Notes under the pieces: model-generated
The model's database searches: none
What the model was told of the DNA's origin: nothing
Seen by the model: the letters and a program-made list of their open reading frames with translations, nothing else
Shown: positions 229 through 27,264 of the stretch, piece after piece
Numbering within the stretch: the stretch's first letter is position 1
Layout of the letters: every line of letters begins with the position of its first letter
DNA from: a virus
Strand: one strand, 5' to 3'
Length of the DNA: 39,140 nt
Virus record (IMG/VR): IMGVR_UViG_3300046010_002080
Coordinates: 1 to 39,140 of that record
Position numbers and translations under genes: made by a program

Positions 229-311
229 TCGGAAATGGTAAGGAAATCCGATTTCATCCATTAGAGTTCTCTTATCGCTTAAGACATAAGCGCAAGGAAC
301 AGGAGAAAGAA

Positions 312-1001
312 ATGACAACAGCAACCAAGACCAAGAAGAAGACAACAACAGCAGCGGACATATTCGCCAAGGGTTCCAAGGTTGAGAATCTCTCAACAAT
401 CACCAAGGCGCTAGAAATGGCTCACGAGATTATCGCCAAGGAAACAGGCGCCCCCCGTGCAACAATCGTCACGGGACGTAGTTCAACAGTTCACGGGCAT
501 TTCACACCTTGGACGCCTTGGGCTAGTGGAGAAGAAACATTCCACGAGATTTTTATCACCATAGCCAAGCGCGAGGCTCGCGAGATTCTTGGAACATTAC
601 TACACGAGACAGCCCACAGCATCGACAATAAAGAGGGAGTAAAGGGCACAAGCGGGGACGGGTACCACAACAAGAACTTCAAGAATCGTGCAGAATCCTT
701 AGGGCTCACCATTACTCAAGCCCCGCGAATCGGATTCTCCGTGACCTCCGTGTCGGATGAGTGCGTGACAAGATGGCAAAAGGCTCACGACCTAATCGAG
801 GAGGCTCTACGCCTAACAGCCGATAGCGGACAAGGTACCGCCAAGCCTAAGGGACGTAATAAGAATCTCCTAGTTGCGGAGTGTGGATGTGGTGAGAAGA
901 TTCGCCTAAGCCAAAAGACACTAGACAAATGCTCTCCAACCTGTAACAACTGCGAAGAATACTTTGTGGTAAATGGTGAAGGGGCGGGGGTGAAGGCTTA
1001 A
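312..1001 (+). CDS. SprT-like zinc metalloprotease
   Basis: Predicted 229-aa SprT-family zinc metalloprotease. Visible are HETAH at residues 98-102 (HExxH, catalytic Glu99), a third possible zinc ligand His119 in GYHNKNF, and a C-terminal zinc ribbon with Cys191, Cys193, Cys207, Cys211 and Cys214. Residues 1-20 are Lys/Thr-rich. I chose the ATG at 312 because CAGGAG lies just before it; the longer frame from about 177 has no such signal. Relatives (SprT, Spartan) act on protein bound to DNA in some systems; the phage substrate is unknown. It is the first gene of the rightward arm, downstream of CRP-like site 1. Its stop codon lies in a tandem CTTAAGAC pair (997-1011). Confidence 0.85.
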   Translation: MTTATKTKKKTTTAADIFAKGSKVENLSTITKALEMAHEIIAKETGAPRATIVTGRSSTVHGHFTPWTPWASGEETFHEIFITIAKREAREILGTLLHETAHSIDNKEGVKGTSGDGYHNKNFKNRAESLGLTITQAPRIGFSVTSVSDECVTRWQKAHDLIEEALRLTADSGQGTAKPKGRNKNLLVAECGCGEKIRLSQKTLDKCSPTCNNCEEYFVVNGEGAGVKA

Positions 1002-1016
1002 GACTTAAGACAGAAA

Positions 1017-1060
1017 GCCCCCGCCCGATTAGTCGGCACAGGTTCACGACCTACGGGGGC
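1017..1060 (+). ncRNA. Structured element, tRNA-like fold without anticodon arm
   Basis: A 44-nt stretch closes with a perfect 7-bp stem, GCCCCCG (1017-1023) with CGGGGGC (1054-1060). Inside are two small hairpins: CCGA/TCGG with loop TTAG (1025-1036) and AGGT/ACCT with loop TCACG (1040-1052), the latter resembling a T-arm. No anticodon arm and no U-run follow. It may be a structured leader, attenuator or processing signal between the SprT gene and the next one. Only the pairing is seen; the function is unknown. Confidence 0.45.
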
Positions 1061-1091
1061 ACGAACTCTCAACCTAAGGTAGAGGGTTAGG

Positions 1092-1107
1092 TGTGATAGA
1101 CATCACA
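1092..1107 (+). promoter_or_regulatory. CRP/GlxR-like operator, site 2
   Basis: Perfect TGTGA-N6-TCACA followed by TCGAAAATGG, matching the flank of site 1 in nine of ten positions. Ten bases after the palindrome is TAAGCG (poor -35) and 17 bases later GATGAT (plausible -10). It lies about 100 bases upstream of the gene at 1208. Confidence 0.7.
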
Positions 1108-1207
1108 TCGAAAATGGTAAGCGATTACCCGATTCGATGGGATGATTACACCAAGCAAGAACATAAAGGGAATCGTTCCCCTTATGACTTAAGACAGGAG
1201 AAACAAA

Positions 1208-1522
1208 ATGGAACCAACAGAGAACACAGGACGTGAGCAGTTCATCGAGGACTACACCCTAGTAATCGACAACGACCAAGATTCTTACAATGAAATAATG
1301 GAAATGCCTGAGTTACTGGCGGGTAATATGTCGGGATTATCTGACAAGTTACGCGAACGCTTTGAGGAGTACATCGGGCAGGTAGTAGAACGCGAGAAGG
1401 AAAACGGACAAGAGGCAGGGGCTTTACTAATCTCTCAAATGCTGATGAACTGGGGAGCAGGAACCTTTGACAAGATAGCAAAACATTACATCGGACTTAA
1501 GACAGAAAGCGCGGTGGCATAA
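1208..1522 (+). CDS. Hypothetical acidic protein, 104 aa
   Basis: Not recognised. It is an acidic, mostly helical-looking soluble protein with no cysteines and no membrane segment. The start is well supported: AGGAG at 1196-1200 and a 7-base spacer before ATG, with the binding site formed by the tail of a CTTAAGAC copy (1188-1200). A second copy (1496-1504) lies in frame near the 3' end and is read Leu-Lys-Thr. It is probably the first gene of a small operon with the membrane protein that starts directly after its stop. Confidence 0.75.
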   Translation: MEPTENTGREQFIEDYTLVIDNDQDSYNEIMEMPELLAGNMSGLSDKLRERFEEYIGQVVEREKENGQEAGALLISQMLMNWGAGTFDKIAKHYIGLKTESAVA

Positions 1523-1684
1523 ATGATTAACACGGAGGAATTCTTCACATTCGGATTTAACAAGTGGGACGTTTGGGTTCAGTCATACTTCGGTGATGTC
1601 TATCTACCTTGGCGAACTCTCATCATCGTGGGAATTATATTCATCGGATTCAAAATCAAGTCACGTCTTAAGACAGGAAAATAA
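1523..1684 (+). CDS. Small single-pass membrane protein, 53 aa
   Basis: The ATG directly follows the TAA of the previous gene. The N-terminal half is aromatic-rich (FFTFGFNKWDVW); a hydrophobic segment of about 13 residues (roughly 33-45, LIIVGIIFIGF) is followed by a basic tail ending LKTGK. This suggests a single-pass inner-membrane peptide. The Leu-Lys-Thr near the C-terminus is encoded by a CTTAAGAC copy at 1667 whose AGG tail also serves the next gene. Function unknown. Confidence 0.6.
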   Translation: MINTEEFFTFGFNKWDVWVQSYFGDVYLPWRTLIIVGIIFIGFKIKSRLKTGK

Positions 1685-1685
1685 A

Positions 1686-1802
1686 ATGTGTGAACTATGC
1701 AACCGTAAAGGATTGGTGTTCACCGTCGAGGTTAACCAAGAAAAGAAGAAGGCGTGTTCAAGTTGCATCTTAACTAATCACCTAACAGGATGGAGTAAGT
1801 AA
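1686..1802 (+). CDS. Small zinc-ribbon protein, 38 aa
   Basis: Starts MCELCNRKG and has a second pair CSSC at residues 24-27, so it looks like a minimal four-cysteine zinc ribbon (C-x2-C then C-x2-C). It begins one base after the preceding gene's stop region, with AGGAAA just upstream. Such knuckles often bind nucleic acid or protein; no specific role can be named. A GTCTTAAGAC palindrome (1803-1812) starts at the base after its stop. Confidence 0.65.
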   Translation: MCELCNRKGLVFTVEVNQEKKKACSSCILTNHLTGWSK

Positions 1803-1817
1803 GTCTTAAGACATAAG

Positions 1818-1833
1818 TGTGACGAAAGTCACA
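1818..1833 (+). promoter_or_regulatory. CRP/GlxR-like operator, site 3
   Basis: Perfect TGTGA-N6-TCACA with a different centre (CGAAAG). The flank differs from sites 1, 2 and 4, though TTGGAG lies ten bases downstream, where a -35 element would fall by analogy. It sits between a GTCTTAAGAC palindrome and a structured leader, upstream of the gene at 1921. Confidence 0.6.
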
Positions 1834-1900
1834 GCCCTAAATCTTGGAGAAAGCGTAGTGGTCGTGCCACTATTAGGGCACTGGTAACAATCCCGTTACC
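1834..1900 (+). ncRNA. Structured 5' leader of the 187-aa gene
   Basis: An outer stem GCCCTAA (1834-1840) with TTAGGGC (1873-1879) encloses a 15-nt bulge and an inner hairpin TAGTGG (1856-1861) with CCACTA (1867-1872), which stacks directly on it. A second hairpin, GGTAAC (1883-1888) with GTTACC (1895-1900), follows, ending 11 bases before AGGAG. The fold could control translation of the gene at 1921. No known riboswitch class is recognised. Confidence 0.45.
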
Positions 1901-1920
1901 TACAAGCACAGGAGAATCAA

Positions 1921-2484
1921 GTGAAGAAAGCAGAACTCAAGGTAGGAGTTGCTTACTATGCAACCTCCCGCAATAATCATATGTACACATTCAGTTCATC
2001 AATACTTAAGACACATAAACAACACGAATCCAATCGCTACTATGTAATCTTTGAATCAGACGGGCAACCTAAGACAGGATACAGAAGCCCAAGCGTAATC
2101 TATATGACGAACTGCACAACCTACGGGCACGATTGCCCAACACATAGCAAACAGGATAGCAACCTAATCAACTGCTGGCGCACAGATTTCCGCTTGATGG
2201 ATATCCGAGGCGAATACTGGTCAATCATTAAAGATATGCACGAGACACGCAAGAATCAAAAGACCAAGGATATTAGAGCCGAACGCCTACGCCGTATCGC
2301 TCAGCGCAATCAAGCCAAGCAAGAAGAACCAATCAAGGCAGAGTTCTATTCTGTCTTAAGTCAGATTACTGGTGACCACTGCTCATCTTGGCACACACTA
2401 GGTGGATTCAGCGTCGAGGAAATGCAGAAGATTACTAACGCACTCAAGTCAACGATGCCAACAGTGCAAGCGGTGGCGTCTTGA
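1921..2484 (+). CDS. Hypothetical protein, 187 aa
   Basis: Not recognised. GTG start with AGGAG at 1910-1914. The N-terminal half looks like a small beta-rich fold (VGVAYYAT, RYYVIFESDG); residues about 105-135 are a strongly basic helix rich in Arg, Lys and Gln (RAERLRRIAQRNQAKQ), suggesting contact with nucleic acid. There are four cysteines without an obvious metal motif. It carries two CTTAAGAC copies, one in frame as Leu-Lys-Thr (2005) and one reversed (2351). It is preceded by CRP-like site 3 and a structured leader. Confidence 0.7.
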   Translation: MKKAELKVGVAYYATSRNNHMYTFSSSILKTHKQHESNRYYVIFESDGQPKTGYRSPSVIYMTNCTTYGHDCPTHSKQDSNLINCWRTDFRLMDIRGEYWSIIKDMHETRKNQKTKDIRAERLRRIAQRNQAKQEEPIKAEFYSVLSQITGDHCSSWHTLGGFSVEEMQKITNALKSTMPTVQAVAS

Positions 2485-2542
2485 TAATCTGCGGAGACTG
2501 CCTCATCCCCCTATCCCAATGCTCACACAGAAAGGATTACAA

Positions 2543-2695
2543 ATGAAACTAACACGAAGAGGTTGGATTGTGCTGGTCATAATCCCAACGCTACTAGCAA
2601 TCGCTGGAATGTATTGGTTATCAGGTCATCTCTGGTGGATGGGCGACCACTACTGTCTTAAGACATTAACAGAATGCTACTTCCCAACTAAGTGA
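2543..2695 (+). CDS. Small membrane protein, 50 aa
   Basis: Begins MKLTRRGWIVLVIIPTLLAI: a positively charged N-terminus followed by a hydrophobic segment of about 20 residues, so a membrane anchor or uncleaved signal. The rest is Trp- and Cys-containing and may lie outside the membrane; Cys37 and Cys43 could form a disulfide. The start follows AAAGGA. The in-frame CTTAAGAC at 2657, here part of a 12-bp palindrome TGTCTTAAGACA, encodes Leu-Lys-Thr. Its stop overlaps CRP-like site 4. Confidence 0.55.
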   Translation: MKLTRRGWIVLVIIPTLLAIAGMYWLSGHLWWMGDHYCLKTLTECYFPTK

Positions 2696-2706
2696 TGAAC
2701 ATCACA
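2691..2706 (+). promoter_or_regulatory. CRP/GlxR-like operator, site 4
   Basis: AGTGA-N6-TCACA, nine of ten positions of the CRP consensus, followed by CCGCAAATGC, the same flank as at sites 1 and 2. It overlaps the stop codon of the gene at 2543 and lies just upstream of the best sigma-70-like promoter in this arm. Confidence 0.65.
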
Positions 2707-2716
2707 CCGCAAATGC

Positions 2717-2745
2717 TTGACATCAATTAGCACAACCGATTAACT
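2717..2745 (+). promoter_or_regulatory. Candidate promoter downstream of CRP-like site 4
   Basis: TTGACA at 2717-2722, a 17-base spacer and TTAACT at 2740-2745. The -35 is perfect; the -10 is weak (3 of 6). Aligning sites 1, 2 and 4 by their palindromes puts comparable -35 and -10 positions at identical distances, which supports the reading. It would drive the gene run from 2777. Confidence 0.45.
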
Positions 2746-2776
2746 ACAACTACCAACTAACGACAGGAGAAACACA

Positions 2777-2935
2777 ATGACAAGAAAAGAAATAGTAATG
2801 GACGGCAAGTTTGCTATCTATCCGTTTGGCAAATGGTGGATTGCAAAAGATACAGAAACAAAACGAAACGTAACCAAGGGCACAAGTCGTAATGACTTAA
2901 TGGAAAAGTTATTACTTAAGACAGGAGATAACTAA
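2777..2935 (+). CDS. Hypothetical protein, 52 aa
   Basis: ATG with ACAGGAGAAACACA just before it, the same ribosome-binding context as other genes of this arm. It is a small, basic, Trp- and Lys-rich protein (GKWWIAKD, KRNVTKGTS) ending LKTGDN, the Leu-Lys-Thr coming from the CTTAAGACAGGAG copy at 2915, which also gives the next gene its binding site. Its stop overlaps the next start as TAATG. Function unknown. Confidence 0.6.
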   Translation: MTRKEIVMDGKFAIYPFGKWWIAKDTETKRNVTKGTSRNDLMEKLLLKTGDN

Positions 2936-3105
2936 TGACAGAGAAACTTATACCTAGTGACTGGCTAGAACACATAGTTAATTGCGAGGGTTGCGGAAAG
3001 ATGGCTACAAAAGATTGGGCAAAGCAAGGCGAGCAAGGAATTATGTGCCAGCGTTGCGCTATAAAGATTCCAAGTTACAAACAACTAAAGAGACTAGGAG
3101 AATAA
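2935..3105 (+). CDS. Zinc-ribbon protein, 56 aa
   Basis: Starts in a TAATG overlap. Four cysteines in two knuckles, CEGC (residues 17-20) and CQRC (38-41), spaced like a small treble-clef or zinc ribbon; the surroundings are basic (KIPSYKQLKR). Probably metal-bound and possibly nucleic-acid or protein binding. AGGAG at the 3' end (GGAGAATAAC) serves the next gene at 3110. Confidence 0.65.
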   Translation: MTEKLIPSDWLEHIVNCEGCGKMATKDWAKQGEQGIMCQRCAIKIPSYKQLKRLGE

Positions 3106-3109
3106 CAAA

Positions 3110-3388
3110 ATGTTACCAGAGCAAACACTAGAAGCATTAACCAATGGCGCAAACCATATGTCATTCAACGAAAGCGGAGAGATGACCAGTGCAAGCGGGT
3201 CAGGCGTGGACTTATACATCCTCGTATCCCTTATCAGTTGGATTGAGTTAGAACTTAAGACAGGAATGAAGATGACGGCACGAGGTAGTACCTTGAAGAA
3301 GGCTAACGAAATGCTAGGTACTAACTATAAGCGCAAGCAACAGGCACTTGACCACCTTAAGTCAGTAGTGTCGGTGCTTAAAGTATGA
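3110..3388 (+). CDS. Hypothetical protein, 92 aa
   Basis: Not recognised. It looks like a soluble alpha/beta protein; the central LYILVSLISWIEL segment is hydrophobic but probably buried, not transmembrane, since charged helices flank it. The C-terminal third is a basic helix pair (KRKQQALDHLKS). The in-frame CTTAAGACAGGAATG copy at 3254 encodes Leu-Lys-Thr-Gly-Met. Its stop overlaps the next start as ATGA. Confidence 0.65.
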   Translation: MLPEQTLEALTNGANHMSFNESGEMTSASGSGVDLYILVSLISWIELELKTGMKMTARGSTLKKANEMLGTNYKRKQQALDHLKSVVSVLKV

Positions 3389-3534
3389 ACGCAACCGAGA
3401 AGGAAGCACTAATTAAATACGCTAGACAAACACGCAAGTACCGCAACGCCAGTGTCACAGACCACACCTTTGATTACTGGCACGGAGTAATGATTCAATG
3501 TGAGTCCTTACTTAAGACAGAAGAAAAGAAATGA
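3385..3534 (+). CDS. Hypothetical protein, 49 aa
   Basis: ATGA overlaps join it to the genes on both sides, indicating translational coupling. It is a small basic helical protein (IKYARQTRKYRN) with one cysteine, ending LLKTEEKK; the Leu-Lys-Thr is from the CTTAAGAC copy at 3511. No family recognised. Confidence 0.55.
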   Translation: MNATEKEALIKYARQTRKYRNASVTDHTFDYWHGVMIQCESLLKTEEKK

Positions 3535-3626
3535 TTTACCTAGCACTTGCATTACTACCAATAGTTTTGCTATCGTTACTAGGAATCATAATCAACGACC
3601 AATCAACGACAGGAGAAAACAAATGA
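3531..3626 (+). CDS. Membrane mini-protein, 31 aa
   Basis: Almost entirely one hydrophobic segment (LALALLPIVLLSLLGIII, residues 4-21) followed by a short polar tail. ATGA overlaps on both sides place it firmly in the operon despite its length. It could be a membrane-anchored peptide modulating a host protein; no function can be named. Confidence 0.5.
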   Translation: MIYLALALLPIVLLSLLGIIINDQSTTGENK

Positions 3627-3727
3627 GTACACAAGAAGAGCAAGCCTTAGCACTTAAGACATTACACGAAGCGATACAAGCACTCAAAGATTGTGGCTTG
3701 ATGACAGAGGAGGAGGATAATGATTGA
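3623..3727 (+). CDS. Hypothetical acidic mini-protein, 34 aa
   Basis: ATG with ACAGGAGAAAACAA before it. A short amphipathic helix with an acidic tail (TEEEDND). In-frame CTTAAGAC at 3653 gives Leu-Lys-Thr. It overlaps the next gene by eight bases (ATGATTGA), the same overlap geometry as at two junctions of the leftward arm. Confidence 0.5.
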   Translation: MSTQEEQALALKTLHEAIQALKDCGLMTEEEDND

Positions 3728-3824
3728 TAAATATTATTACGAGTGTAAAGAATGCGAAAAAGTTTTTCTTAAACAAGAGGATAAAATAAACCATAAGTGT
3801 TATGGAAAATGGAAGGGCGAGTAA
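3720..3824 (+). CDS. C2HC zinc-finger mini-protein, 34 aa
   Basis: Starts within the previous gene (8-base overlap) after GGAGGA. Sequence around the metal site is YYYECKECEKVF with His25 and Cys27, a classic single C2HC or C2H2-like finger. The stop overlaps the next start as TAATG. A possible DNA- or RNA-binding finger. Confidence 0.55.
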   Translation: MIDKYYYECKECEKVFLKQEDKINHKCYGKWKGE

Positions 3825-4000
3825 TGGGATACGAACCACCACTAAATGACCCTTGGTTTTACGACGACTCAGACTTTATTAAATGTAACAGTTGTGATGA
3901 TACCTTCGACCACAATCTATACAACTCAAAGACCTGTCTTAAGTGTGAAGATAAGCAGGTAGAACAGGAGCGAGCAAGTGCAAATGCAAATCGTGTATGA
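3824..4000 (+). CDS. Zinc-ribbon protein, 58 aa
   Basis: I use the ATG at 3824 (TAATG overlap, GGGCGAG upstream) and not the in-frame upstream start at 3797, which lies inside the previous gene. The acidic N-terminus (PWFYDDSDF) precedes two knuckles, CNSC and CLKC, forming a four-cysteine ribbon at residues about 21-41. A reversed CTTAAGAC copy (3934-3943) lies in the second knuckle. Overlaps the next gene by 23 bases. Confidence 0.6.
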   Translation: MGYEPPLNDPWFYDDSDFIKCNSCDDTFDHNLYNSKTCLKCEDKQVEQERASANANRV

Positions 4001-4196
4001 AACAAAGGGCGTTAAGGTGGTCAACGTCTGGCTACCAGAGGGCACGCAACTACCCGCTGGCTGGAAGACTATGACATACCAAGCACAGGATGAGTGGCTC
4101 TATGAACATCAATCAGAATCCAAAACATTATGGAGTGATGAGCATCAAGGTCAACCAGTCAATGTGTTACCAGTCTTATGTCTTAAGGCAGTATGA
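3978..4196 (+). CDS. Hypothetical protein, 72 aa
   Basis: GTG at 3978 has AGGAG eight bases upstream (3966-3970); the ATG at 3984 is the alternative start. Small soluble protein with a beta-rich N-terminus (KVVNVWLPEGTQLPAGW) and an acidic middle. No known family recognised. A reversed CTTAAGAC (4179-4187) lies at the 3' end. The stop overlaps the next start (ATGA). Confidence 0.55.
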   Translation: MQMQIVYETKGVKVVNVWLPEGTQLPAGWKTMTYQAQDEWLYEHQSESKTLWSDEHQGQPVNVLPVLCLKAV

Positions 4197-4315
4197 AACT
4201 GCTAGGACATAGCCTTGCAATCTATGCAATCTTTTTCTTCGGAGGTGCTGGCGCACTATGGATACCCATACTAGGGTTAATAACATTTCTTTATTTTACG
4301 GGGGTAATCGGATGA
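4193..4315 (+). CDS. Membrane mini-protein, 40 aa
   Basis: Hydrophobic over most of its length, probably two short membrane segments (about 8-20 and 23-38) separated by GAGALW. ATGA overlaps at both ends place it in the operon directly before the WhiB-like gene. Function unknown. Confidence 0.5.
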   Translation: MKLLGHSLAIYAIFFFGGAGALWIPILGLITFLYFTGVIG

Positions 4316-4665
4316 CACTAAAGGATAGAAGTTGGCACGAGAAAGGCTTATGTTCGGGTCATCCCACACCTGACATCTGGCACTACGACAACTCAATCTT
4401 CCACGATGAACAACAGTTACAGGTATTGAATAGCGCAGAGGCTATACAGATATGCAACATATGTCCAGTCAAAGCACAGTGCCTAGCCCAAGGGTTAGAG
4501 CCTGAGAATATGCAGTACACAGGGGGCAGTGGTTCTATATGGGGTGGATTACTAATGAGCGAGAGGCATATGCTCAACACTAAGAAGCCAGTCAATAGAA
4601 AACTTATCTCAGAGGTGCGTCATCGTCGGGATGTGAGGCGTGCTATTGGTAAGATTGCACAATGA
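4312..4665 (+). CDS. whiB: WhiB-family iron-sulfur transcription factor
   Basis: A 117-aa WhiB-like (Wbl) protein. The four cluster ligands are Cys14, Cys48, Cys51 and Cys57 (C, then C-x2-C-x5-C in CNICPVKAQC), followed by the family's Gly-Trp turn GSIWGG (74-79) and a basic C-terminus (RHRRDVRRAIGK) for DNA contact. Wbl proteins carry a [4Fe-4S] cluster and usually work bound to the host primary sigma factor; some phage members interfere with host whiB control. I use ATG 4312 (ATGA overlap); a longer in-frame start at 4258 lies in the previous gene. It marks the host as an actinobacterium. ATGA overlap with the transglycosylase downstream. Confidence 0.93.
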   Translation: MTLKDRSWHEKGLCSGHPTPDIWHYDNSIFHDEQQLQVLNSAEAIQICNICPVKAQCLAQGLEPENMQYTGGSGSIWGGLLMSERHMLNTKKPVNRKLISEVRHRRDVRRAIGKIAQ

Positions 4666-5081
4666 AAAGACACATAGTAGCAGTGACTATCTTGGTAGTA
4701 GCAATCATCTTTGCCCCAGTTGGCAATGATGTATCAGTTAATGTTGGGGTTACATTTAATCCTAATCATAAACCGCCAACCAAGGCGACAATGGAACAGA
4801 AGAGAGCCAACAAAGTTATGGCAATGAAGTTTGCTAAGGCAGGTTATGATTGGGACTTAAGACAGAGGCAGTGCATCTATAAGTTGTTCACCAAGGAGTC
4901 ACGCTTCGACCACCTAGCCAAGAACCAACAGGGTAGTAGTGCTTACGGCATAGGACAGATGCTTAAAGAAACTAGCAATGACCCAGCCATACAGATACTA
5001 AAGGCATACAAATATATCAAGCATCGTTACGATACACCGTGCCGTGCTTGGAACCACAGTGTCACCAGGAATTGGTATTAA
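4662..5081 (+). CDS. Secreted lytic transglycosylase-like protein
   Basis: 139 aa. A basic start plus hydrophobic segment (residues 5-19) looks like a signal peptide or anchor. The catalytic region resembles goose-type/SLT transglycosylases common in actinobacteria and their phages: Glu79 in TKESRFD, GIGQM (96-100), and a C-terminal RYDTPCRAWNH then NWY. It would cut peptidoglycan glycan strands outside the membrane. Its place is odd: it is in the rightward arm with WhiB, not with the CHAP endolysin of the late operon, so it may act at another time. TAATG overlap with the next gene. Confidence 0.8.
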   Translation: MKRHIVAVTILVVAIIFAPVGNDVSVNVGVTFNPNHKPPTKATMEQKRANKVMAMKFAKAGYDWDLRQRQCIYKLFTKESRFDHLAKNQQGSSAYGIGQMLKETSNDPAIQILKAYKYIKHRYDTPCRAWNHSVTRNWY

Positions 5082-5260
5082 TGTTAGACCTAAGAGGTAA
5101 GCCAATACTTACCTGTATCTGTGGTTGCAAGATGTTTGTTATCACCGTGATGTGGGATGACGAGACAAGAGAAGTAAGTTGGTATGACTTAAGACAGGAA
5201 TGCAAGGAGTGCAAGGCAATCAGCACTGCACCTACACCAATGGATTGGAAGGATGAGTAA
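5081..5260 (+). CDS. Zinc-ribbon protein, 59 aa
   Basis: Start chosen in the TAATG overlap at 5081; the longer frame from 5039 would begin inside the transglycosylase. Cysteines Cys12, Cys14, Cys16 and then CKEC (41-44) suggest a zinc ribbon. A CTTAAGACAGG copy (5188) lies in frame as Asp-Leu-Arg-Gln, a different reading from the usual Leu-Lys-Thr. Stop overlaps the next start (TAATG). Function unknown. Confidence 0.6.
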   Translation: MLDLRGKPILTCICGCKMFVITVMWDDETREVSWYDLRQECKECKAISTAPTPMDWKDE

Positions 5261-5433
5261 TGCCAACGTATGAGTATCGTTGCAATAAATGTATGGCACA
5301 CACAGTGCTAAGTCGTAAGGTAGAAGAACGCGATGAAGAAGTTACTTGCGTTTGTGGTCATACATCAAGTAGAATATACAACACACCAGCAATCCGCTTC
5401 AATGGTAGCGGGTTCTATTCAACAGGAGGTTAG
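5260..5433 (+). CDS. FmdB-like zinc-ribbon protein, 57 aa
   Basis: Starts MPTYEYRCNKC, the hallmark opening of FmdB-type regulatory zinc ribbons, with a second pair CVC (30-32) and the family-like ending RFNGSGFYSTGG. These small proteins are frequent next to phage genes and are thought to bind metal and partner proteins; the exact role is unknown. Its 3' end supplies AGGAGG for the next gene. Confidence 0.75.
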   Translation: MPTYEYRCNKCMAHTVLSRKVEERDEEVTCVCGHTSSRIYNTPAIRFNGSGFYSTGG

Positions 5434-5436
5434 ACA

Positions 5437-5595
5437 ATGTGTGATATATGTGAAGGTGGCGGATGCTCTGTATGTTTTAAGACAGAGGGCGAAGGCTTAC
5501 AGTTTGCTAGTGGTAAAGAGATAGAAGAGTTCTTCGATTCTTATTCAGAAGTTATGCACGTAGACCCAGCAGAATCTACTCCTGAGGTGGAGTAA
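5437..5595 (+). CDS. Zinc-knuckle protein, 52 aa
   Basis: ATG with AGGAGG at 5424-5429. Starts MCDICEGGGCSVC, a compact C-x2-C-x4-5-C-x2-C arrangement like a DnaJ-type cysteine-rich knuckle, followed by an acidic helix and tail. A near copy of the repeat word (TTTTAAGACAG) follows the knuckle. It is the last gene of the rightward arm and overlaps the 3' end of the oppositely transcribed sigma-like gene by 20 bases. Confidence 0.6.
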   Translation: MCDICEGGGCSVCFKTEGEGLQFASGKEIEEFFDSYSEVMHVDPAESTPEVE

Positions 5596-5602
5596 CCTCT
5601 GC
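5569..5602. terminator. Hairpin over the convergent gene ends
   Basis: GCAGA (5569-5573) pairs with TCTGC (5598-5602) outside, and TACTCC (5577-5582) with GGAGTA (5589-5594) inside, loop TGAGGT. It covers both stop codons of the convergent operons. There is no U-run on either side, so intrinsic termination is uncertain; it could also be an RNA-stability element or act by transcriptional collision. Confidence 0.4.
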
Positions 5603-6223
5603 GATATCTTCATCACGATAAGGTCTGAAGCCACCAATCTTATTGATTAACTTACGTATGCCACGCTTGTGACGCATACGAGCAGTGTCTTCACTACCTA
5701 ACTCCATCTCTTTTGCTATGTCAGGAAAGTCCATTGCTTCAGCGTGACGCAGGAACAATAACTTCCTATCATCTTTAGTTAGTTTCCAGTATGCAAAGTC
5801 AATCTCAATCATCATCGCCATCATATTGCCACCCTCACTAGGTGCAGAGGGGCGACCAGGGCGACCTAAGTCCACTTTGTTTAACTGATTCCATTCACTT
5901 CTTAAGACAGGAGTGAGCAAGGCTTCAACCATATCTGCTTCGTAATAGAACAGGTCGCTTGTCTCATAGCCACCAGACTTAGCCTTCCAATGCTGACAGT
6001 AATCTAATGCTTGGTTACGTAGGCTACGATAGATTAAGTTCTTTGCATCCTTAACTCCGATTGCTTCCCACGTATCTAACTTATTGGGATGCTCAAGGAA
6101 CCACTGATAGAGTGATTGTCGGATGTCTTCTAAATCTATATCACTAAACTTGCGGTGGTACTCAGATGCAACAGCATCAACAACGTACTGCCAAGGTTCA
6201 ATGCGTGCCCATTCAAGTGTCAC
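5576..6223 (-). CDS. Sigma-70-like (ECF-type) RNA polymerase sigma factor
   Basis: 215 aa with a two-domain sigma layout. Residues about 10-82 resemble region 2 (helical; LEDIRQSLYQWFLEH, then AKNLIYRSLRNQALDYCQ), joined by a Gly/Pro linker (120-133) to a region 4-like helix-turn-helix (about 147-196; KLTKDDRKLLFLRHAE, DFPDIAKEMELGSEDTARMR, HKRGIRKLINK). It probably directs host RNA polymerase to phage promoters; being last in the replication operon, it is the natural candidate for switching on the late operon. GTG start in a GTGA overlap. A plain helix-turn-helix regulator is the alternative. Confidence 0.7.
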   Translation of the reverse strand: MTLEWARIEPWQYVVDAVASEYHRKFSDIDLEDIRQSLYQWFLEHPNKLDTWEAIGVKDAKNLIYRSLRNQALDYCQHWKAKSGGYETSDLFYYEADMVEALLTPVLRSEWNQLNKVDLGRPGRPSAPSEGGNMMAMMIEIDFAYWKLTKDDRKLLFLRHAEAMDFPDIAKEMELGSEDTARMRHKRGIRKLINKIGGFRPYRDEDIAEVTPPQE

Positions 6224-6606
6224 TTTATTCTTACCCCGTTATCTAAATGGAGGAAGCCAACCAGTTTCATCTTGTTATTCTTATTAGCAAACTCTGTCGT
6301 ACTAGGTAACCACTTCTCGTTCCATTCAATGTCTATCATTAAGTGAAGAGGAAAAGCCCAGACACCTTCAGGTGTTGAGTTGATATACCAAGGAGTTAAC
6401 CCCAACCTATGTGCCTCTTCAAGTAAGAAGTCATACTTCATCTTCTCAATCAACAGGTCAGGGTAGTGTGTCTTTCGTGACTTAAGTTCGATAAACATTT
6501 TATATCTGTCAGTAGTGCAATCGAATCCATCGTACTCTTCGGGTGAGTGGATAAGGTCGGGTAAGTAAGTTGCCCTTAACCAATCAAAGAGTTCTTTTTC
6601 TTTCAC
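6220..6606 (-). CDS. PD-(D/E)XK nuclease-like protein, 128 aa
   Basis: Compact restriction-endonuclease-like core: Asp29 in YDGFDC, then FIELKSR with Glu40 and Lys42, the D...ExK arrangement, followed by a helix (LLIEKMKYDFLLEEAHR). Similar small nucleases occur in actinophage replication modules. It may process DNA during recombination or protect the nucleotide pool by degrading host DNA; the substrate is not determinable here. GTG start, GTGA overlap at both ends. Confidence 0.6.
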   Translation of the reverse strand: MKEKELFDWLRATYLPDLIHSPEEYDGFDCTTDRYKMFIELKSRKTHYPDLLIEKMKYDFLLEEAHRLGLTPWYINSTPEGVWAFPLHLMIDIEWNEKWLPSTTEFANKNNKMKLVGFLHLDNGVRIK

Positions 6607-6989
6607 TCATTATCCCACTTACCTCTTAAGACAAGAAGCCCGATGATTGCGTAGTTAGCCATATCCTTAAATGAATCTTCAAGTGACTCGTGTTCAGGTG
6701 TTGCACCACTATCAACTAAGTTGTTGATGCGTGCTAACTTATCGTGCATACGTACACGCAACCCATTGATGGCACCGCCAGGGGCTTGCGATATATTCTT
6801 TGGACCGTAGTCCTTATGCTTACTGAGCAGTAGGTTAGAAAGTTCCTGACTTAAGTTAGAAAGATTTACTTCGAGGTGGAGTTCGCGTGCAATAGAGGAA
6901 TCTTTAGGTTGACTATCAGGAAGGAACCTTCCTTGGAGTATGTTGATACCTTCAGACCTTGATTCACTAGATGATTTATAATCTGCCAT
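6603..6989 (-). CDS. Nmad1/DUF1599-like protein, 128 aa
   Basis: Residues about 55-127 carry the pattern of the nucleotide-modification-associated domain 1 (DUF1599) family: LSKHKDYGPKN, NGLRVRMHDKLARINNL, then HESLEDSFKDMANYAIIGLL. In phages this family is found with base-modification or nucleotide-metabolism genes and has a MazG-like helical fold by prediction. The first 45 residues are Ser-rich and probably disordered. No hydroxymethylase or other modifying enzyme is visible in this genome, so its role is unclear. Confidence 0.75.
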   Translation of the reverse strand: MADYKSSSESRSEGINILQGRFLPDSQPKDSSIARELHLEVNLSNLSQELSNLLLSKHKDYGPKNISQAPGGAINGLRVRMHDKLARINNLVDSGATPEHESLEDSFKDMANYAIIGLLVLRGKWDNE

Positions 6990-6995
6990 ATCTCT

Positions 6996-7367
6996 TCACG
7001 CTCCGCCTTCGTCGTCATTGGTATCCGTTTCTAATAGTCGTGCTAAGTTTTGGTCGAAGTCTACGAGTGCTGACTTGACTACCATATCCTCAACAAGTTC
7101 ATCTACTAGGTCGTAACCATTCTCACTAGCGAACAGTGTAACATAGGTGGACTGTGTTATAAGTCTTATCTGGTTAGGGTCATCAGCGTGGTTAAACATA
7201 AACCTTAGTAGTGACCCTAGCAGAAGTTTGTATCCGTTGGGTAGTATGTAGTACGGGTCGAACTCTTCACCCTCTTCAAAGTAATGGTCCACTAATTGAA
7301 ATGAATCCTCAAATTGTAGATGACAATCGTGGCAATAATTGTGTGGGTCTTCGGGTTCCTGGCTCAC
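6996..7367 (-). CDS. Zinc-finger-like acidic protein, 123 aa
   Basis: The N-terminus has YCHDCHLQFEDSFQLVDHYF (residues about 11-30), a C-x2-C plus downstream His pattern like a C2H2-type finger; the rest is acidic and helical, ending DTNDDEGGA. Found between primase and Nmad1-like genes; possibly a DNA- or protein-binding accessory to replication. GTG start in a GTGA overlap with the Toprim gene. Confidence 0.6.
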   Translation of the reverse strand: MSQEPEDPHNYCHDCHLQFEDSFQLVDHYFEEGEEFDPYYILPNGYKLLLGSLLRFMFNHADDPNQIRLITQSTYVTLFASENGYDLVDELVEDMVVKSALVDFDQNLARLLETDTNDDEGGA

Positions 7368-7984
7368 TGAATCCCTATCTTTTCCAGTATGAAGTCTTTA
7401 CCGTGGGACACGAACACTGAATTAACATCTGCTCCGTCTCCGAACCCGACGACAGTAACTGGCAATTCGCGGGCAAGACTATTGGCGAACTCACGTCCTG
7501 GCGCATCGCCGTCAGCAAAGACGAACACTCTTTCAAAGTCAGCGAGCAATCGTGTGTAGTGTTTCTTCCAACTGTTCGCACCTGGTACTCCAACACAAGG
7601 AAAGCCAACACACCTAGACATAGTAAGGGTATCCAGTTCACCTTCACACACTCCAATCCAATCACCTGCACGTTGCACATCAAGCACGTTATACATACGA
7701 GTCTCTGCTCCTACCATACCCATATACTTAGGTTCAACTGCAGGGTTAAGACTTCTAAATCTTAGGTCAACAACACCAGTCTTAGTGATGTAAGGGATTG
7801 ATAAGCGTCCAGTGTATTGCTCGTGACCTGTATCAGGTTCCGCGACTACGCCTAATTGAGCCAACCGTGCTACCTCCAGAGGTATTCCTCTGCTTGCTAG
7901 GTAATCTTCTGCCAGATGAATACTTTCCGCGTACTTGTGTACTGACTTCCCCAGTAATTCCTTCTGCAAAACGCTGTGCCTCAT
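7364..7984 (-). CDS. DNA primase, Toprim (catalytic) part
   Basis: 206 aa with a Toprim domain: CEGELD (113-118, Glu114 or Glu116 as catalytic acid and Asp118) and FADGDAPG (156-163, Asp158 and Asp160 for metal), then DGADVN. This is the RNA-primer-synthesis half of a DnaG-type primase. The zinc-binding half is a separate gene upstream (7833-8213) and the two share 152 bases in different frames. The ATG at 7984 has GAAGG about 12 bases upstream. Primer synthesis would work together with the helicase encoded at 8739. Confidence 0.85.
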   Translation of the reverse strand: MRHSVLQKELLGKSVHKYAESIHLAEDYLASRGIPLEVARLAQLGVVAEPDTGHEQYTGRLSIPYITKTGVVDLRFRSLNPAVEPKYMGMVGAETRMYNVLDVQRAGDWIGVCEGELDTLTMSRCVGFPCVGVPGANSWKKHYTRLLADFERVFVFADGDAPGREFANSLARELPVTVVGFGDGADVNSVFVSHGKDFILEKIGIQ

Positions 7985-8213
7985 AGAAACTTAGCCCTTC
8001 TTGACGGACGATGATTTGAATACTATTTCCTTGCACACCACAAGCGAAGCAGATGAAGATGTTCTTATCGAGATTCGCTGTACCACTTTGGTGTGTGTCA
8101 CCGTGAAAGGGGCACTTAAGATTGACTTGTCCGTGAGTACTACGTATGGATGCCCCGTAGTGTTCAAGGATTGCTTTGATGGAGGGCAAGTCGTTGTCAA
8201 TTTTTATCACCAT
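7833..8213 (-). CDS. DNA primase, CHC2 zinc-finger part
   Basis: 126 aa. Residues 34-58 form a CHC2-type zinc site: CPFH (Cys34, His37) and CFAC (Cys55, Cys58), the template-binding N-terminal domain of DnaG primases. After residue about 88 the protein continues as a basic Arg/Ser/Gly-rich tail that is encoded in one frame while the Toprim gene is read in another. It has a 17-base overlap with the nuclease gene upstream. Split primases are known in other actinophages. Confidence 0.85.
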   Translation of the reverse strand: MVIKIDNDLPSIKAILEHYGASIRSTHGQVNLKCPFHGDTHQSGTANLDKNIFICFACGVQGNSIQIIVRQEGLSFYEAQRFAEGITGEVSTQVRGKYSSGRRLPSKQRNTSGGSTVGSIRRSRGT

Positions 8214-8541
8214 ACCCTGCTTCCCGTAGTAGCCATACTAAATCTTCTGTTCTCATTAACGAAACCCAATCACCTATTGACTTCTCACCCTGTCCATTTA
8301 GTCTTAAGACAACAACACCGAGGTCACCTTTGGCTCTATCTTTTAACTGTGCTATTGCAGCAGCAGGATTAAATCCAGTGCGTGCCTTGACTTCAAAATC
8401 TATACCAACACAACCAGTGATATCGCTACCACTACGACCAGCACCTGTAGATTCCGCAAATGGGAATCCGTTGTCAGCAAGGTAGTTAGCCAAGACTTTT
8501 TGACTTCTGTACCCTCGATGCTTTCTGCTCTGCGATGCCAC
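8197..8541 (-). CDS. Holliday-junction-resolvase-like PD-(D/E)XK nuclease
   Basis: 114 aa. SGSDITG then GIDFEVKAR gives Asp40, Glu50 and Lys52, the D...ExK core of archaeal-type Hjc/VRR-NUC-like nucleases; the basic N-terminus (SRKHRGYRSQK) would contact DNA. It probably resolves branched DNA during replication or before packaging. GTG start directly after the preceding stop. Contains a GTCTTAAGAC palindrome at 8301-8310. Confidence 0.7.
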   Translation of the reverse strand: MASQSRKHRGYRSQKVLANYLADNGFPFAESTGAGRSGSDITGCVGIDFEVKARTGFNPAAAIAQLKDRAKGDLGVVVLRLNGQGEKSIGDWVSLMRTEDLVWLLREAGYGDKN

Positions 8542-8739
8542 TTACGTAGCACTCTTATCCCCACGAAGGATACGGATAGCCCACTCCATACCAACATTCA
8601 ATCCATCAGTCCACTCATCCTTGATTGGAACTTTAGACTCTTCAATCTTTTGTATTACTTTATCAATGCGTGCTTGTGTTTCCACCATCACAGCCTGACG
8701 TATGACCTGAGTCATATCGTCTTCTTCTTCTCTAATCAT
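8542..8739 (-). CDS. Hypothetical helical protein, 65 aa
   Basis: Starts in a TAATG overlap with the helicase stop. Acidic N-terminus (MIREEEDD) followed by two probable helices, the second ending WAIRILRGD. No recognisable motif. Sits between helicase and resolvase genes, so a small replication accessory is possible but unproven. Confidence 0.6.
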   Translation of the reverse strand: MIREEEDDMTQVIRQAVMVETQARIDKVIQKIEESKVPIKDEWTDGLNVGMEWAIRILRGDKSAT

Positions 8740-9524: not shown

Positions 9525-9617
9525 AGACTTCTCCTGTCTTAAGTTGGAAGAGAGGCAGTCACCTTCCCCTGAATAACTGCCCCTCCGCCAATTCTTATTC
9601 TAGCATTGACTGTTGTA
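9525..9617 (-). promoter_or_regulatory. Helicase gene leader with hairpin and repeat word
   Basis: 93-base gap in an otherwise overlapping operon. It holds an inverted repeat GGCAGT (9554-9559) with ACTGCC (9576-9581) and, next to the gene, the CTTAAGACAGGAG unit. No gene of useful length is visible. It may control helicase translation. Confidence 0.4.
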
Positions 9618-10013
9618 TTAGCCGTTGGTCGGAGCGCATTGTTCCGCGCCCTGAGGTTGTGGACATACCCACATTGAGTAAGGCTTGCCGTTCTTCTTCG
9701 AGATTCCCGATAGGAACTTGCGGTTGCCGTGAACGCAGGTCGGTGATGATAGACCCGTAGCGGACGGAGCCACTGTCGGGGCGGGTGCGGAGGTAGCCCA
9801 AGGAGGCGTGTCTACTGTTGAAGTAGTGGTCGCCAAAGGGGCTACGTTGTATGCACCAGCAATCATCTTGCTAGTTGCTGCAATCTGTGTTGAGTAATCA
9901 GAGATACCCTCTAGCAATACGCTGAGTTCATCTGCTGATGTCGCACGAATATTAATCAAGTCACCATTCGGAGACTTAACTGATACCTGTAACTTCCAGT
10001 TTTCTTCTGACAT
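9618..10013 (-). CDS. Hypothetical protein with C-terminal zinc-ribbon-like segment, 131 aa
   Basis: N-terminal about 55 residues form a small ordered domain (VSVKSPNGDLINIRATSADE); residues 58-90 are a Pro/Thr/Ala/Ser-rich linker; the C-terminal part CVHGNRKFLSG...MWVCPQ...QC has three cysteines and one His spaced like a zinc ribbon. The layout, a fold plus linker plus zinc ribbon, is seen in replication-associated actinophage proteins; a single-stranded-DNA-binding role is only a guess. TAATG overlap with the nuclease gene. Confidence 0.55.
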   Translation of the reverse strand: MSEENWKLQVSVKSPNGDLINIRATSADELSVLLEGISDYSTQIAATSKMIAGAYNVAPLATTTSTVDTPPWATSAPAPTVAPSATGLSSPTCVHGNRKFLSGISKKNGKPYSMWVCPQPQGAEQCAPTNG

Positions 10014-10932: not shown

Positions 10933-10951
10933 TGCTATCCCCTGTCTCTAG

Positions 10952-11006: not shown

Positions 11007-11010
11007 GATT

Positions 11011-11203: not shown

Positions 11204-11249
11204 AAAAAAAGAACCCCATCACCTCGGCGTGTTGCCAAGATGATGGGGT
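11204..11249 (-). terminator. Intrinsic terminator of the late operon
   Basis: In minus-strand RNA a 15-bp stem (11249-11235 with 11227-11213, two G-U pairs, loop 7 nt) is followed by UUC and seven U (11210-11204). Two of the pairs are G-U only in this direction and would be mismatches on the other strand, so the element is directional. It lies 14 bases after the last late gene. The repeat palindrome GTCTTAAGAC (11248-11257) touches its base. Confidence 0.92.
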
Positions 11250-11262
11250 CTTAAGACTTAGG

Positions 11263-25875: not shown

Positions 25876-27264
25876 TTAGATTAAGCCAGCACCACGTTGC
25901 TGAGAAGCAAATGATTTACTTCCCATTGTGCCTGACTCAGCAGAGAAGCGACCAATTTCCTTAGCCTTAAGGATGTCTTCTTCTTGCTGTGCTTTAACAT
26001 TCTTCTTGAATGTAATCTCTTCTGCAGTCTCTTGCGTATAGTTGATGCCAGTCTCACCAGAAATCTGAGATAGGAACTTACCGCGAGGTAGAGCCTGTGC
26101 GATGTATCGAACACCAGCCTGTGCTCCAGCCTTAGTGACGCCATATGCAGCCAATGATTCAGCAGAAATCTTAGATGCTTCAAGTCCTTGCGCTAGGTAT
26201 GAGCCACCGATTTCAGCAGCAGCAGCCTTACGCTCAAGCATTGGTAACATCTCATCAGGGTTAAGCATTGCTGCAACAATGTCTCCAGTTCCAAGACTTG
26301 GATAAAACTTCCTGAATGCTTCTTCAATGTTCTTATCTGACTTAAGACGGTCATAACCAATCTTCAAGCGACTAGTAACATCTACTGCATCCATTGAGTT
26401 GCCAATCAATGTGGCATACATCTTGCGGTTAGCAAGAGAACCTACATCGTAAGCCTTAAAAATAGTCTCGTATTCTTTTTCTGCCTTAAGATAAAGGTCA
26501 TCAGTGAGGGTAGGTAAACCCTTCTTAATGAGGGCAGCGTTACCAGCAAAGCGTTCTAGGTATGGAGCGTTGTAGCGTGTATCAAACTTAAGTAATGCAA
26601 GGATGTCTGCACTTGCAATCTCTGGGTAGTCAGCACGAATCTTAGCGATTGAATCTGCTACACCCTTCATATCGTAGTTCTTTAGGATGCCTTCTACGAT
26701 AGAGAACGCTGGGTTAGACAAGTCTCCGCCTAGTGGAGAGTCAACTTTTTTAACAACTGGTGTACCAGAAGCATCAAGAGTGCTTACTGTTCCGTCACTA
26801 TAAGTGATAGTTGTTGTTCCATCAGCGTTCTTTACGCTTGATTGAACTGTCTTTGTTGTAGAAACAGTGCTTGCTGTTCCTGTCTTAAGACCTGAACCAG
26901 ATACAAGGTTGCCTTGCTTGTCATAGACGTTACCACTTGTAGTAGTACGTGTGGTAGGAATAGGTACACCGACAGGGAATACTTCCTTATAGGTTCCAAC
27001 TCCACCTGCACCTGTGCGAACAAACTCAATTGTTGCTCCAGCCTTAGCACCTTCTACAGTTAATTCAGGCTTTGCCTGGTCCTTATAACCCTGGGTAATA
27101 CGAGCATTCGCCTGGGCTGCTGTTTCATTACCAACACGTGCGGTGCGGTCTGTACTCTTGACGCCTGCTGCTACTTGCTGTTTTGTTACAGCATCAAGCA
27201 ATGCCTTAGCATCGAGTTCATTTCCTCCACCGTCTACCTGCATAACTCCTGGTATGAACGCCAT
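25876..27264 (-). CDS. Putative internal virion protein, 462 aa
   Basis: Starts MAFIPGVMQVDGGGNELDAK. The first third is Thr/Gly/Val-rich with repeats of a beta type (TTITYSDGTVSTLDASG); the rest is helical with Ala/Lys/Glu content (EYETIFKAYDVGSLANRKM). One of three consecutive large genes between scaffold and portal-side genes whose size and composition suit ejected internal proteins of short-tailed phages. No enzyme motif seen. Confidence 0.5.
   Translation of the reverse strand: MAFIPGVMQVDGGGNELDAKALLDAVTKQQVAAGVKSTDRTARVGNETAAQANARITQGYKDQAKPELTVEGAKAGATIEFVRTGAGGVGTYKEVFPVGVPIPTTRTTTSGNVYDKQGNLVSGSGLKTGTASTVSTTKTVQSSVKNADGTTTITYSDGTVSTLDASGTPVVKKVDSPLGGDLSNPAFSIVEGILKNYDMKGVADSIAKIRADYPEIASADILALLKFDTRYNAPYLERFAGNAALIKKGLPTLTDDLYLKAEKEYETIFKAYDVGSLANRKMYATLIGNSMDAVDVTSRLKIGYDRLKSDKNIEEAFRKFYPSLGTGDIVAAMLNPDEMLPMLERKAAAAEIGGSYLAQGLEASKISAESLAAYGVTKAGAQAGVRYIAQALPRGKFLSQISGETGINYTQETAEEITFKKNVKAQQEEDILKAKEIGRFSAESGTMGSKSFASQQRGAGLI

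Follow-up and report, generated by a model that had tools for sequence, protein, structure and literature searches.

The over-represented word CTTAAGAC of this phage genome forms the core of an 18-bp dyad-symmetric site, and the presence of the sites depends on one gene, the SprT-like gene. Since the sites are present only with this gene opening the rightward arm, they point to an unrecognised phage gene-control system. On balance we consider it probable that they are operators for a phage-encoded factor that arrives with the right arm, with the SprT-like protein as the best candidate and a stoperator-like action.

Abundance and distribution of the repeat

The window, i.e., the whole stretch of 39,140 nucleotides that was analysed, closes into a circle: its terminal repeat spans 127 bp, which leaves 39,013 bp of unique sequence. 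The source is a lake-water phage of actinobacteria, and its relatives include isolates on 'Ca. Planktophila'. Among lake viruses, the phages that infect acI actinobacteria rank with the commonest, and no account of gene control in these phages was found in the literature examined.

In the window, CTTAAGAC gave 38 strand hits, corresponding to 31 distinct loci (seven of them full GTCTTAAGAC palindromes), of which 18 lie in 278-5195. Shuffled genomes contained 1.58 +/- 1.30 hits, and 0 of 100 shuffles reached 38. The word was the top over-represented 8-mer of the genome when counted against a second-order background (38 versus 2.25 expected). The first-pass annotation had proposed such a count and had estimated about 31 loci against about 1 expected, with 18 in the first 5.2 kb; these figures held, with an expectation of about 1.6. 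Exact copies of CTTAAGACAGGAG numbered four. A PWM scan detected 35 sites at a score of at least 12, versus about 0.7 per shuffled genome (Table 1).

The site density was about one per 300 bp in the rightward early arm. The repeat had been described as a property of this arm, and most sites are indeed in early genes, but they continue at a lower density in the leftward replication arm (5901-11250), and a thin scatter is present in the structural genes. The description of one copy per gene is roughly right, as 19 sites (18 exact and a variant at 5476) accompany about 20 small genes. The spacing in the right arm was more even than chance (mean 306 bp, CV 0.53 versus 0.89, P 0.006), and an even spacing was observed in 10 of 10 arms examined. 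The right-arm sites were also nearer to gene boundaries than chance (mean 47 versus 78 bp, P 0.011).

Table 1. The SprT-like gene and the 18-bp sites in the window
Position	Strand	Feature	Score or basis
272..289	+	site TTATCGCTTAAGACATAA, leader of SprT-like gene	PWM 17.8
312..1001	+	SprT-like zinc-metalloprotease-like protein, 229 aa	first gene of rightward arm
991..1015	+	two overlapping sites (cores 997, 1004), stop codon of SprT-like gene	PWM 16.5, 22.4
1182..1199	+	site TTATGACTTAAGACAGGA, fused to RBS of gene 1208	PWM 23.1
1490..1507	+	site, 3' end of gene 1208-1522	PWM 18.4
1661..1678	+	site, full palindrome core, end of gene 1523-1684	PWM 23.0
1799..1816	+	site, full palindrome core, stop of gene 1686-1802	PWM 21.4
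1999..2016	+	site within gene 1921-2484	PWM 14.3
2349..2366	-	site within gene 1921-2484	PWM 20.5
2651..2668	+	site, full palindrome core, near end of gene 2543-2695	PWM 21.3
2909..2926	+	site and RBS, junction of genes 2777-2935 and 2935-3105	PWM 19.9
3248..3265	+	site within gene 3110-3388	PWM 17.1
3505..3522	+	site, end of gene 3385-3534	PWM 19.8
3647..3664	+	site within gene 3623-3727, reads GCA CTT AAG ACA	PWM scan and orthologue comparison
3932..3949	-	site within gene 3824-4000	PWM 15.8
4176..4193	-	site, end of gene 3978-4196	PWM scan and orthologue comparison
4850..4867	+	site within SLT-like gene 4662-5081	PWM 17.0
5182..5199	+	site within gene 5081-5260	PWM scan and orthologue comparison
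5470..5487	+	variant site GTATGTTTTAAGACAGAG in gene 5437-5595	PWM 12.8
5895..5912	+	leftward-arm site in sigma-factor gene 5576-6223(-)	PWM 19.8
6619..6636	+	leftward-arm site in DUF1599 gene	PWM 18.0
6844..6861	+	leftward-arm site in DUF1599 gene	PWM 17.9
8297..8314	.	leftward-arm site, full palindrome core, in RusA-like gene	PWM 16.5
9532..9549	-	leftward-arm site fused to RBS of DnaB-like helicase gene	PWM 18.3
11244..11261	.	leftward-arm site, full palindrome core, intergenic	PWM 14.8
26878..26895	.	strongest structural-region site, full palindrome core	PWM 21.7
cores 15216, 15468, 16498, 26341, 26485, 31100, 32524, 34670, 36980		weaker structural-region sites	PWM scan; low regional density

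Structure of the site

A motif was built from 146 non-redundant sites of the relatives. Its edges are sharp at -6 and +11, and the flanks carry near zero information. The unit is an 18-bp dyad-symmetric quasi-palindrome, TYMTGWCTTAAGACAKRA, with mirror-image preferences at T-6/A+11 (0.71/0.72), A,C-4/T,G+9 and G-2/C+7. The repeat recognised earlier is real, but the conserved unit is this dyad-symmetric 18-bp sequence and not an 8-mer.

The extended form had been read as polar and as carrying the ribosome site. About 36% of the non-redundant right-arm sites do run into a Shine-Dalgarno sequence and start codon, and the polar CTTAAGACAGGAG form exists because a third of the sites merge with Shine-Dalgarno sequences; the other 64% are away from starts. 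Likewise, copies had been placed at gene ends or starts, or in frame as Leu-Lys-Thr, and the sites do approach boundaries, but many are mid-gene and in various frames. In the rightward arms, the orientation was 67:12 co-directional with transcription, and the RBS fusion accounts for part of this strong bias. These properties would suit an RNA-level element present once per gene, either an extended Shine-Dalgarno or start-associated signal or a hairpin for mRNA processing or stability, and GACAGGAG is a general RBS of the phage family, found also without the palindrome. However, this explanation is improbable in view of the many sites far from starts, the lack of strand bias in the leftward arms (12:8), the symmetry reaching -6, where no Shine-Dalgarno sequence lies, and the use of the same RBS by site-free phages without the SprT-like gene. 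Positions -1/+6 are pairable in just 27% of the right-arm sites, and the hairpin form was rejected from the mismatch in the other 73%.

Association of the sites with the SprT-like gene

The repeat is a conserved feature of a freshwater actinophage family. Every ORF of the window of at least 25 aa was scored against motif-rich and motif-poor records, and the SprT-like gene (with its antisense shadows) was the sole ORF found in 10 of 10 other motif-rich and 0 of 12 motif-poor relatives. Each of the ten other SprT-positive records had 18-34 sites. An independent sample of loci was drawn by the unrelated gene 5081-5260. The 16 SprT-positive arms in this sample carried 2.56-3.89 sites/kb, while the 27 intact SprT-negative arms carried 0-1.08 sites/kb (median 0.18; P 5.7e-8). 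Sites were present in 42 of 42 further SprT-positive loci down to 55% identity, most at 2-3.6/kb, and the lowest densities belonged to truncated loci or a variant lineage. On the terL (terminase) tree, the SprT status changed seven times, at least four of them forced, and four of four independent pairs were concordant. The PWM was trained on SprT-positive phages; unbiased word and dyad counts revealed no comparable word in the nearest SprT-negative arms either.

Two SprT-negative relatives with a different first gene contained 8-10 copies of another dispersed palindrome, TGTCGGGYTAGCCCGACAG. For the first gene of G007, a fold search with the model (pLDDT 73.4) gave nothing significant, and a search for more first genes of this type matched only itself. 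The sigma factor, WhiB and the left-arm proteins were rejected as the binder: they are present in G021 and G001, which lack right-arm sites, with left-arm proteins mostly 82-100% identical, the sigma factor 92-99% and WhiB 83 and 54%.

The core, CTTAAG, is a perfectly palindromic hexamer of the kind cut by restriction enzymes, and evenly spread copies would fit a mark, as expected if the sites served DNA modification, self-recognition or protection from nucleases rather than gene control. This is very unlikely, because the specificity extends over 18 bp, the sites are concentrated in the early arms and switch together with one non-methylase gene, and a methylase was not recognised among the proteins scanned. 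The related suggestion of a modification site or replication origin found no evidence in its favour; the sites go with the early arms and with a gene of the right arm.

Gain and loss of sites within orthologous genes

Orthologous right-arm genes of SprT-positive phages contained 66 sites in 26.8 kb. The same genes of SprT-negative kin contained none in 7.2 kb (near kin; Poisson P 2e-8) and none in 5.5 kb (far kin). The changes at the sites were largely synonymous, so that sites were kept or lost by codon choice. The site in gene 3623-3727 was kept in 7 of 7 SprT-positive orthologues and absent from 3 of 3 SprT-negative ones, which use other Leu-Lys-Thr codons (e.g., CTA for CTT in GCA CTT AAG ACA). 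The site in gene 3978-4196 occurred in 0 of 4 SprT-negative orthologues, and that in gene 5081-5260 was kept in 7 of 9 other SprT-positive arms and absent from 4 of 4 SprT-negative arms with the same WYDLxQE stretch. These results show that selection acts on the site independently of the protein sequence.

A codon, mutational or host-word bias could be imagined from the in-frame copies, which often encode Leu-Lys-Thr, but it is refuted by the synonymous loss in SprT-negative orthologues, which encode the same peptides without the word, and by the absence of host enrichment; we give it practically no chance. Sites also lie in several frames and between genes. A word equally common in the host had been named as the observation that would speak against a special role, and a search of 11 host-clade genomes revealed no enrichment and no host regulon with the site, and in most of these genomes the word was no more frequent than its reversed control.

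The first-pass annotation also offered the word as a boundary at which recombination reshuffles small genes. Breakpoints were about twofold nearer to sites than random (23% versus 11% within 20 bp). However, breakpoints between SprT-positive arms were as dense at gene starts lacking a site as at those that carry one (3.69 versus 3.97 per kb), and window junctions with sites had fewer breakpoints (2.6 versus 6.35 per 100 bp). Breakpoints follow gene starts and not the word, while synonymous point changes create and remove sites within intact orthologous genes, so that a shuffling boundary is extremely unlikely.

The SprT-like gene and its product

The SprT-like protein has a HETAH motif, a basic KPKGRNKN linker and a C-terminal CxC/CxxC zinc-ribbon-like end. 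In 18 relatives, HExAH and C191, C193, C211 and C214 were invariant, i.e., an HExxH motif together with a cysteine zinc ribbon. The Pfam SprT-like match (PF10263) had an E value of 0.0064 and 16.8 bits, below the gathering cut-off of 25.6, and relatives scored 19.6 and 15.7 bits. A fold search with the model (pLDDT 75.8) gave nothing significant, the best hit being CapP (7t5t, E 0.08, TM 0.22), and a solved-structure sequence search using the SprT alignment gave chance hits only. No recognised DNA-binding domain was found by Pfam and the fold search. SprT relatives were not found in genome contigs and 151 host-family genomes, in a search without a positive control. The gene is bracketed by sites in its leader and at its stop codon; a site lies at most 120 bp upstream of the gene in 19 of 24 relatives and at its stop in 14 of 24.

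The zinc-protease motif, the first fold hit to the CapH-cleaving protease, although far from significant, and the lack of a recognised DNA-binding domain would fit an antirepressor protease of the ImmA/ImmR, IrrE/DdrO or CapP/CapH kind, acting on another DNA-binding protein from the host or from an unrecognised right-arm gene. We regard this as rather unlikely, since no second gene tracks the sites across relatives. As for a host binder, the host-clade genomes yielded two long-form hits in 14 Mb and have no site regulon, and therefore such a protein would not need the site for any other purpose.

Dispersed operators as the most probable explanation

Under the operator explanation, the likeliest regulator is the SprT-like protein or something under its control; a different product of the right arm, or a protein of the host, might also fill this role. 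We infer binding by a protein dimer at the sites, the SprT-like identity of the binder and an outcome at transcription. The SprT-like protein, or a DNA-bound factor that it controls, would occupy the dispersed sites as a dimer, repress its own leader and form directional roadblocks within the early operon; such roadblocks would lower or time early transcription in the fashion of stoperators. Weighing against this explanation, a DNA-binding domain is not recognised in the SprT-like protein, a pure palindrome would not need the right-arm orientation bias, and SprT-negative phages run the same early genes without sites. An integrase or repressor was not found among the proteins scanned (Pfam, PHROGs), although small ORFs may escape, and a stoperator role in lysogeny is therefore unsupported.

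More tentatively, and with rather more doubt than belief, we propose that the SprT-like metalloprotease itself may be a sequence-specific DNA-binding regulator of 20-35 dispersed 18-bp operators, and that freshwater actinophages may exchange a regulator and all its operators as one set along with the rightward arm. In such exchanges GACTTAAGAC would go with SprT and TGTCGGGYTAGCCCGACA with an unrelated first gene, and the sites in conserved genes would be rewritten synonymously. A dispersed-operator system tracking one gene through many phages offers a concrete, testable regulator-operator pair. If true, it would carry the stoperator concept past the temperate mycobacteriophages, provide a first function for SprT-like genes common in actinophages and show that operators can be built and erased inside coding sequence via synonymous change.

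Comparison with known systems

In ImmA/ImmR, IrrE/DdrO and CapP/CapH, a zinc protease is paired with palindromic operators, and a separate repressor binds the operators. Here, no separate repressor partner was found: the fold match was not significant, and no repressor gene, adjacent or otherwise co-occurring, was found across the relatives. The SprT-like proteases of Arthrobacter, Streptomyces and Actinoplanes phages are alike in being HExxH zinc-protease-like proteins of the early/middle region, and the actinophage hits are about 27-31% identical to the protein of the window. A SprT-like gene and repeated words were seen together in these phages, among which SprT-bearing ones only were considered.

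The SAS/ESAS of Cluster K mycobacteriophages occurs in 11-19 copies in the non-structural arm and is polar with an internal Shine-Dalgarno sequence; a second element is an inverted repeat, and SprT-like genes occur in the cluster (PMC3203893). The SAS, GGGATAGGAGCCC, is almost always at start codons, whereas the consensus here is different, about a third of the sites are at starts and the palindrome is the constant part.

The stoperators of Cluster A mycobacteriophages (L5, Bxb1) and Cluster CA Rhodococcus phages occur in 20-30 dispersed copies, mostly off promoters, are transcription-oriented in the main arm, and may differ in word and regulator between relatives (PMC6550527, PMC5721134, PMC13313380). 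They are asymmetric sequences of 13-14 bp that lie between genes or at the end of one, and in these temperate phages a known repressor binds them. The present sites differ in that they are 18-bp quasi-palindromes without the asymmetric consensus, many conserved ones are mid-gene, and a SprT-like gene occupies the regulator position, with no recognised repressor or integrase. The dispersed copy number is alike in the window and in the other SprT-positive records. Thus, the first-pass reading as a start-associated or stoperator-like site does not hold for the mycobacteriophage elements proper, in sequence, symmetry or placement, but it is supported as to the kind of system: 20-35 dispersed copies in the early region, oriented in the right arm and all-or-none with a gene in the regulator position.

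Genome organization

The phage genome in the window is circular and complete, comprising 39,013 bp of unique sequence and a 127-bp terminal repeat; the table summarizes its arrangement from our own gene calls. By gene content its kin are the Planktophila phages LanE43-AprE7 (E7) and LanE43-AprF5 (F5), whose isolation host was 'Ca. Planktophila', a member of Nanopelagicales, an order abundant in fresh water (PMC10202952), and a presumptive host was assigned to the window phage via its phage family. The rightward small genes also include WhiB, a transglycosylase-like protein and a zinc ribbon. The replication-arm genes 9618-10013 and 10013-10618 have Pfam matches to the mycobacteriophage L5/D29 gp49 family and the Cas4/PD-(D/E)XK exonuclease family. 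Four CRP/GlxR-like palindromes, GTGAN6TCAC (mostly TGTGAN6TCACA), precede right-arm transcription units at 214, 1093, 1819 and 2692; after each of the first two comes a shared TCGNAAATGGTAAG stretch. Similar palindromes are found in the arms of E7, F5 and six relatives (G001, G014-G017 and G021). Such palindromes could serve a host regulator at early promoters.

Features of the window and of two relative loci
Feature	Record	Position	Direction or extent
About 20 small genes, SprT-like zinc-metalloprotease-like gene first	window	0.3-5.6 kb	rightward
Replication genes and sigma factor	window	5.6-11.5 kb	leftward
Terminase, portal, capsid and tail genes	window	12-38.6 kb	leftward
Unrelated first right-arm gene, TGTCGGGYTAGCCCGACAG-type locus	L144	16691-17287	with downstream arm
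Unrelated first right-arm gene, TGTCGGGYTAGCCCGACAG-type locus	L142	18628-19236	with downstream arm

A dispersed 18-bp site

The most enriched 8-mer of the window is CTTAAGAC, with 38 copies on both strands against 1.58 in shuffled sequences. As the first-pass annotation had reported, the repeat occupies 31 distinct loci, 18 of them within 278-5195. Alignment of the window sites and of 146 non-redundant sites of relatives defined a conserved unit of 18 bp, TYMTGWCTTAAGACAKRA, with dyad symmetry centred on CTTAAG; its information ends at -6 and +11, with none outside. A weight matrix, trained on sites of phages carrying the SprT-like gene (SprT+) and in agreement with unbiased word and dyad counts, found 35 window sites, against about 0.7 in shuffled genomes at the same score; the rightward arm has 19 of them, the leftward early arm 6 and the structural genes (27 kb) 10. 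All ten rightward arms tested had more regular spacing than random (CV 0.45-0.78 vs about 0.87), seven of them significantly (P < 0.05). Sites flank the SprT-like gene, in the leader in 19 and at the stop in 14 of 24 relatives. By eye, many SprT-like leaders (L098, L107, L109-L122) have an apparent hairpin immediately preceding the RBS; the 18-bp site lies on the hairpin's 3' side.

Two other origins had been raised for the repeat. A word common in the host is not what we found, since 11 Nanopelagicales-type genomes, including LanE-43, on which E7 and F5 were isolated, were without enrichment: CTTAAGAC had 8-39 copies per 0.6-1.6 Mb, in most no more than the reversed control, and the long form occurred twice in 14 Mb. 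The word does not belong to the host. If the sites were boundaries through which genes recombine, breakpoints should gather at them, and these do lie twofold closer to sites than random; however, the excess largely disappears when gene starts are taken into account (3.97 vs 3.69 breakpoints per kb at gene starts with and without a site), and within the window the site-bearing junctions have fewer breakpoints.

Sites accompany the SprT-like gene

Almost all records retrieved via the SprT-like gene had CTTAAGAC among their top words, and in close relatives retrieved via the capsid gene it was often not a top word. When all window ORFs of at least 25 aa were tested, the SprT-like gene alone was present in 10/10 other motif-rich and 0/12 motif-poor records. 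Because most motif-rich records had come via this gene, the association was retested on 80 loci fetched with the neutral gene 5081-5260. Site densities did not overlap (P 5.7e-8), being 2.56-3.89 per kb in 16 SprT+ arms and 0-1.08 (median 0.18) in 27 arms lacking the gene (SprT-) with an intact start. A wider search added 42 SprT-like loci, with identity down to 55%, and all had sites, mostly at 2-3.6 per kb. The lowest densities were in truncated loci and in lineage L314/L316, whose core has G, A or C in place of the T following C; a shift of the operator along with its regulator is possible. Downstream of the gene in L314 and L316 (SprT-like protein 57% identical), the core becomes GTCGTAAGAC and GACATAAGAC.

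Mapped onto the terminase tree, the SprT label shows seven changes, at least four of them on well supported branches, and clusters no more than shuffled labels. Sites accompany the gene in 4/4 independent pairs, a number that alone cannot give significance. G021, nearest to the window in other parts of the genome (terminase and DnaB 95-99%), does not carry the SprT-like gene, and the right-arm genes common to both are free of sites in it.

Right-arm genes common to both phage kinds hold 66 sites in 26.8 kb in SprT+ phages, against none in 7.2 kb of near SprT- kin (Poisson P 2e-8) and none in 5.5 kb of far ones. At 3653, 7/7 SprT+ orthologues have GCA CTT AAG AC(A/G), and the same Ala-Leu-Lys-Thr is encoded by GCA CTA AAG ACA in G021 and E7 and by GCA CTC AAG ACT in F5. 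Likewise, most SprT+ arms keep GACTTAAG at 5188 within WYDLxQE, a stretch for which SprT- arms use other codons. These counts and codon comparisons show that the site itself is under selection. The site that most SprT+ relatives have in gene 5260-5433 has been lost from the window, whose local DNA matches that of G021 (SprT-), a pattern that recent gene exchange would produce.

Two other SprT- relatives, G007 and G009, start their rightward arms with a protein of another kind, 200 aa long (35% identity between the two). Their arms carry 8-10 copies of another dispersed palindrome, TGTCGGGYTAGCCCGACAG, with one or more copies ahead of the first gene and several located at RBSs. The occurrence of two gene-word pairs in one phage family suggests that the word is read by the first gene's product or by a factor under its control.

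A probable operator system

Recognition as DNA is favoured over recognition as RNA, because sites occur mid-gene and in several frames, the leftward arm has no strand bias (12:8), and the -1/+6 position is mostly unable to pair (73% of right-arm sites). Orientation in the rightward arm is strongly polar (67:12), which is partly explained by fusion of sites with the usual RBS of the family, GACAGGAG, as 36% continue into an SD and start codon; directional roadblocks could add to this polarity. The evidence best supports a dispersed operator system, on which a phage factor would dim or time early transcription. The SprT-like protein is the likeliest candidate for this factor. That it binds the sites directly we rate as somewhat less likely than not. 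Next most likely, the factor at the sites would be a DNA-bound protein cleaved by the putative SprT-like protease; fold and domain searches gave no result separating the two roles.

Comparison with known systems

In phages of two other host genera with a SprT-like gene in common, CGTGTAAACG/GTGTAAAC is scattered on both strands (20 copies in Arthrobacter phage Yang, L261; 28 in Reedo, L262; 37 in 49 kb of Streptomyces phage Crosby, L263), with less than 0.3 expected where computed. Actinoplanes phage phiAsp2 (L260) has about 6-7 copies of an 18-bp quasi-palindrome, TTGACACTTCACAGTCAA, around its SprT-like gene pas43. The literature examined on this phage group does not describe the repeat. Neither a Rep-type repressor nor an integrase was recognised in the set of proteins scanned. 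The repeat is not the start-associated sequence of Cluster K phages (PMC3203893). The first-pass annotation had suggested, as one of several readings, a stoperator-like site. The sites differ from the dispersed repressor sites of mycobacteriophages (stoperators; PMC6550527) in sequence, symmetry and placement, but in their probable working it is these that they most resemble.
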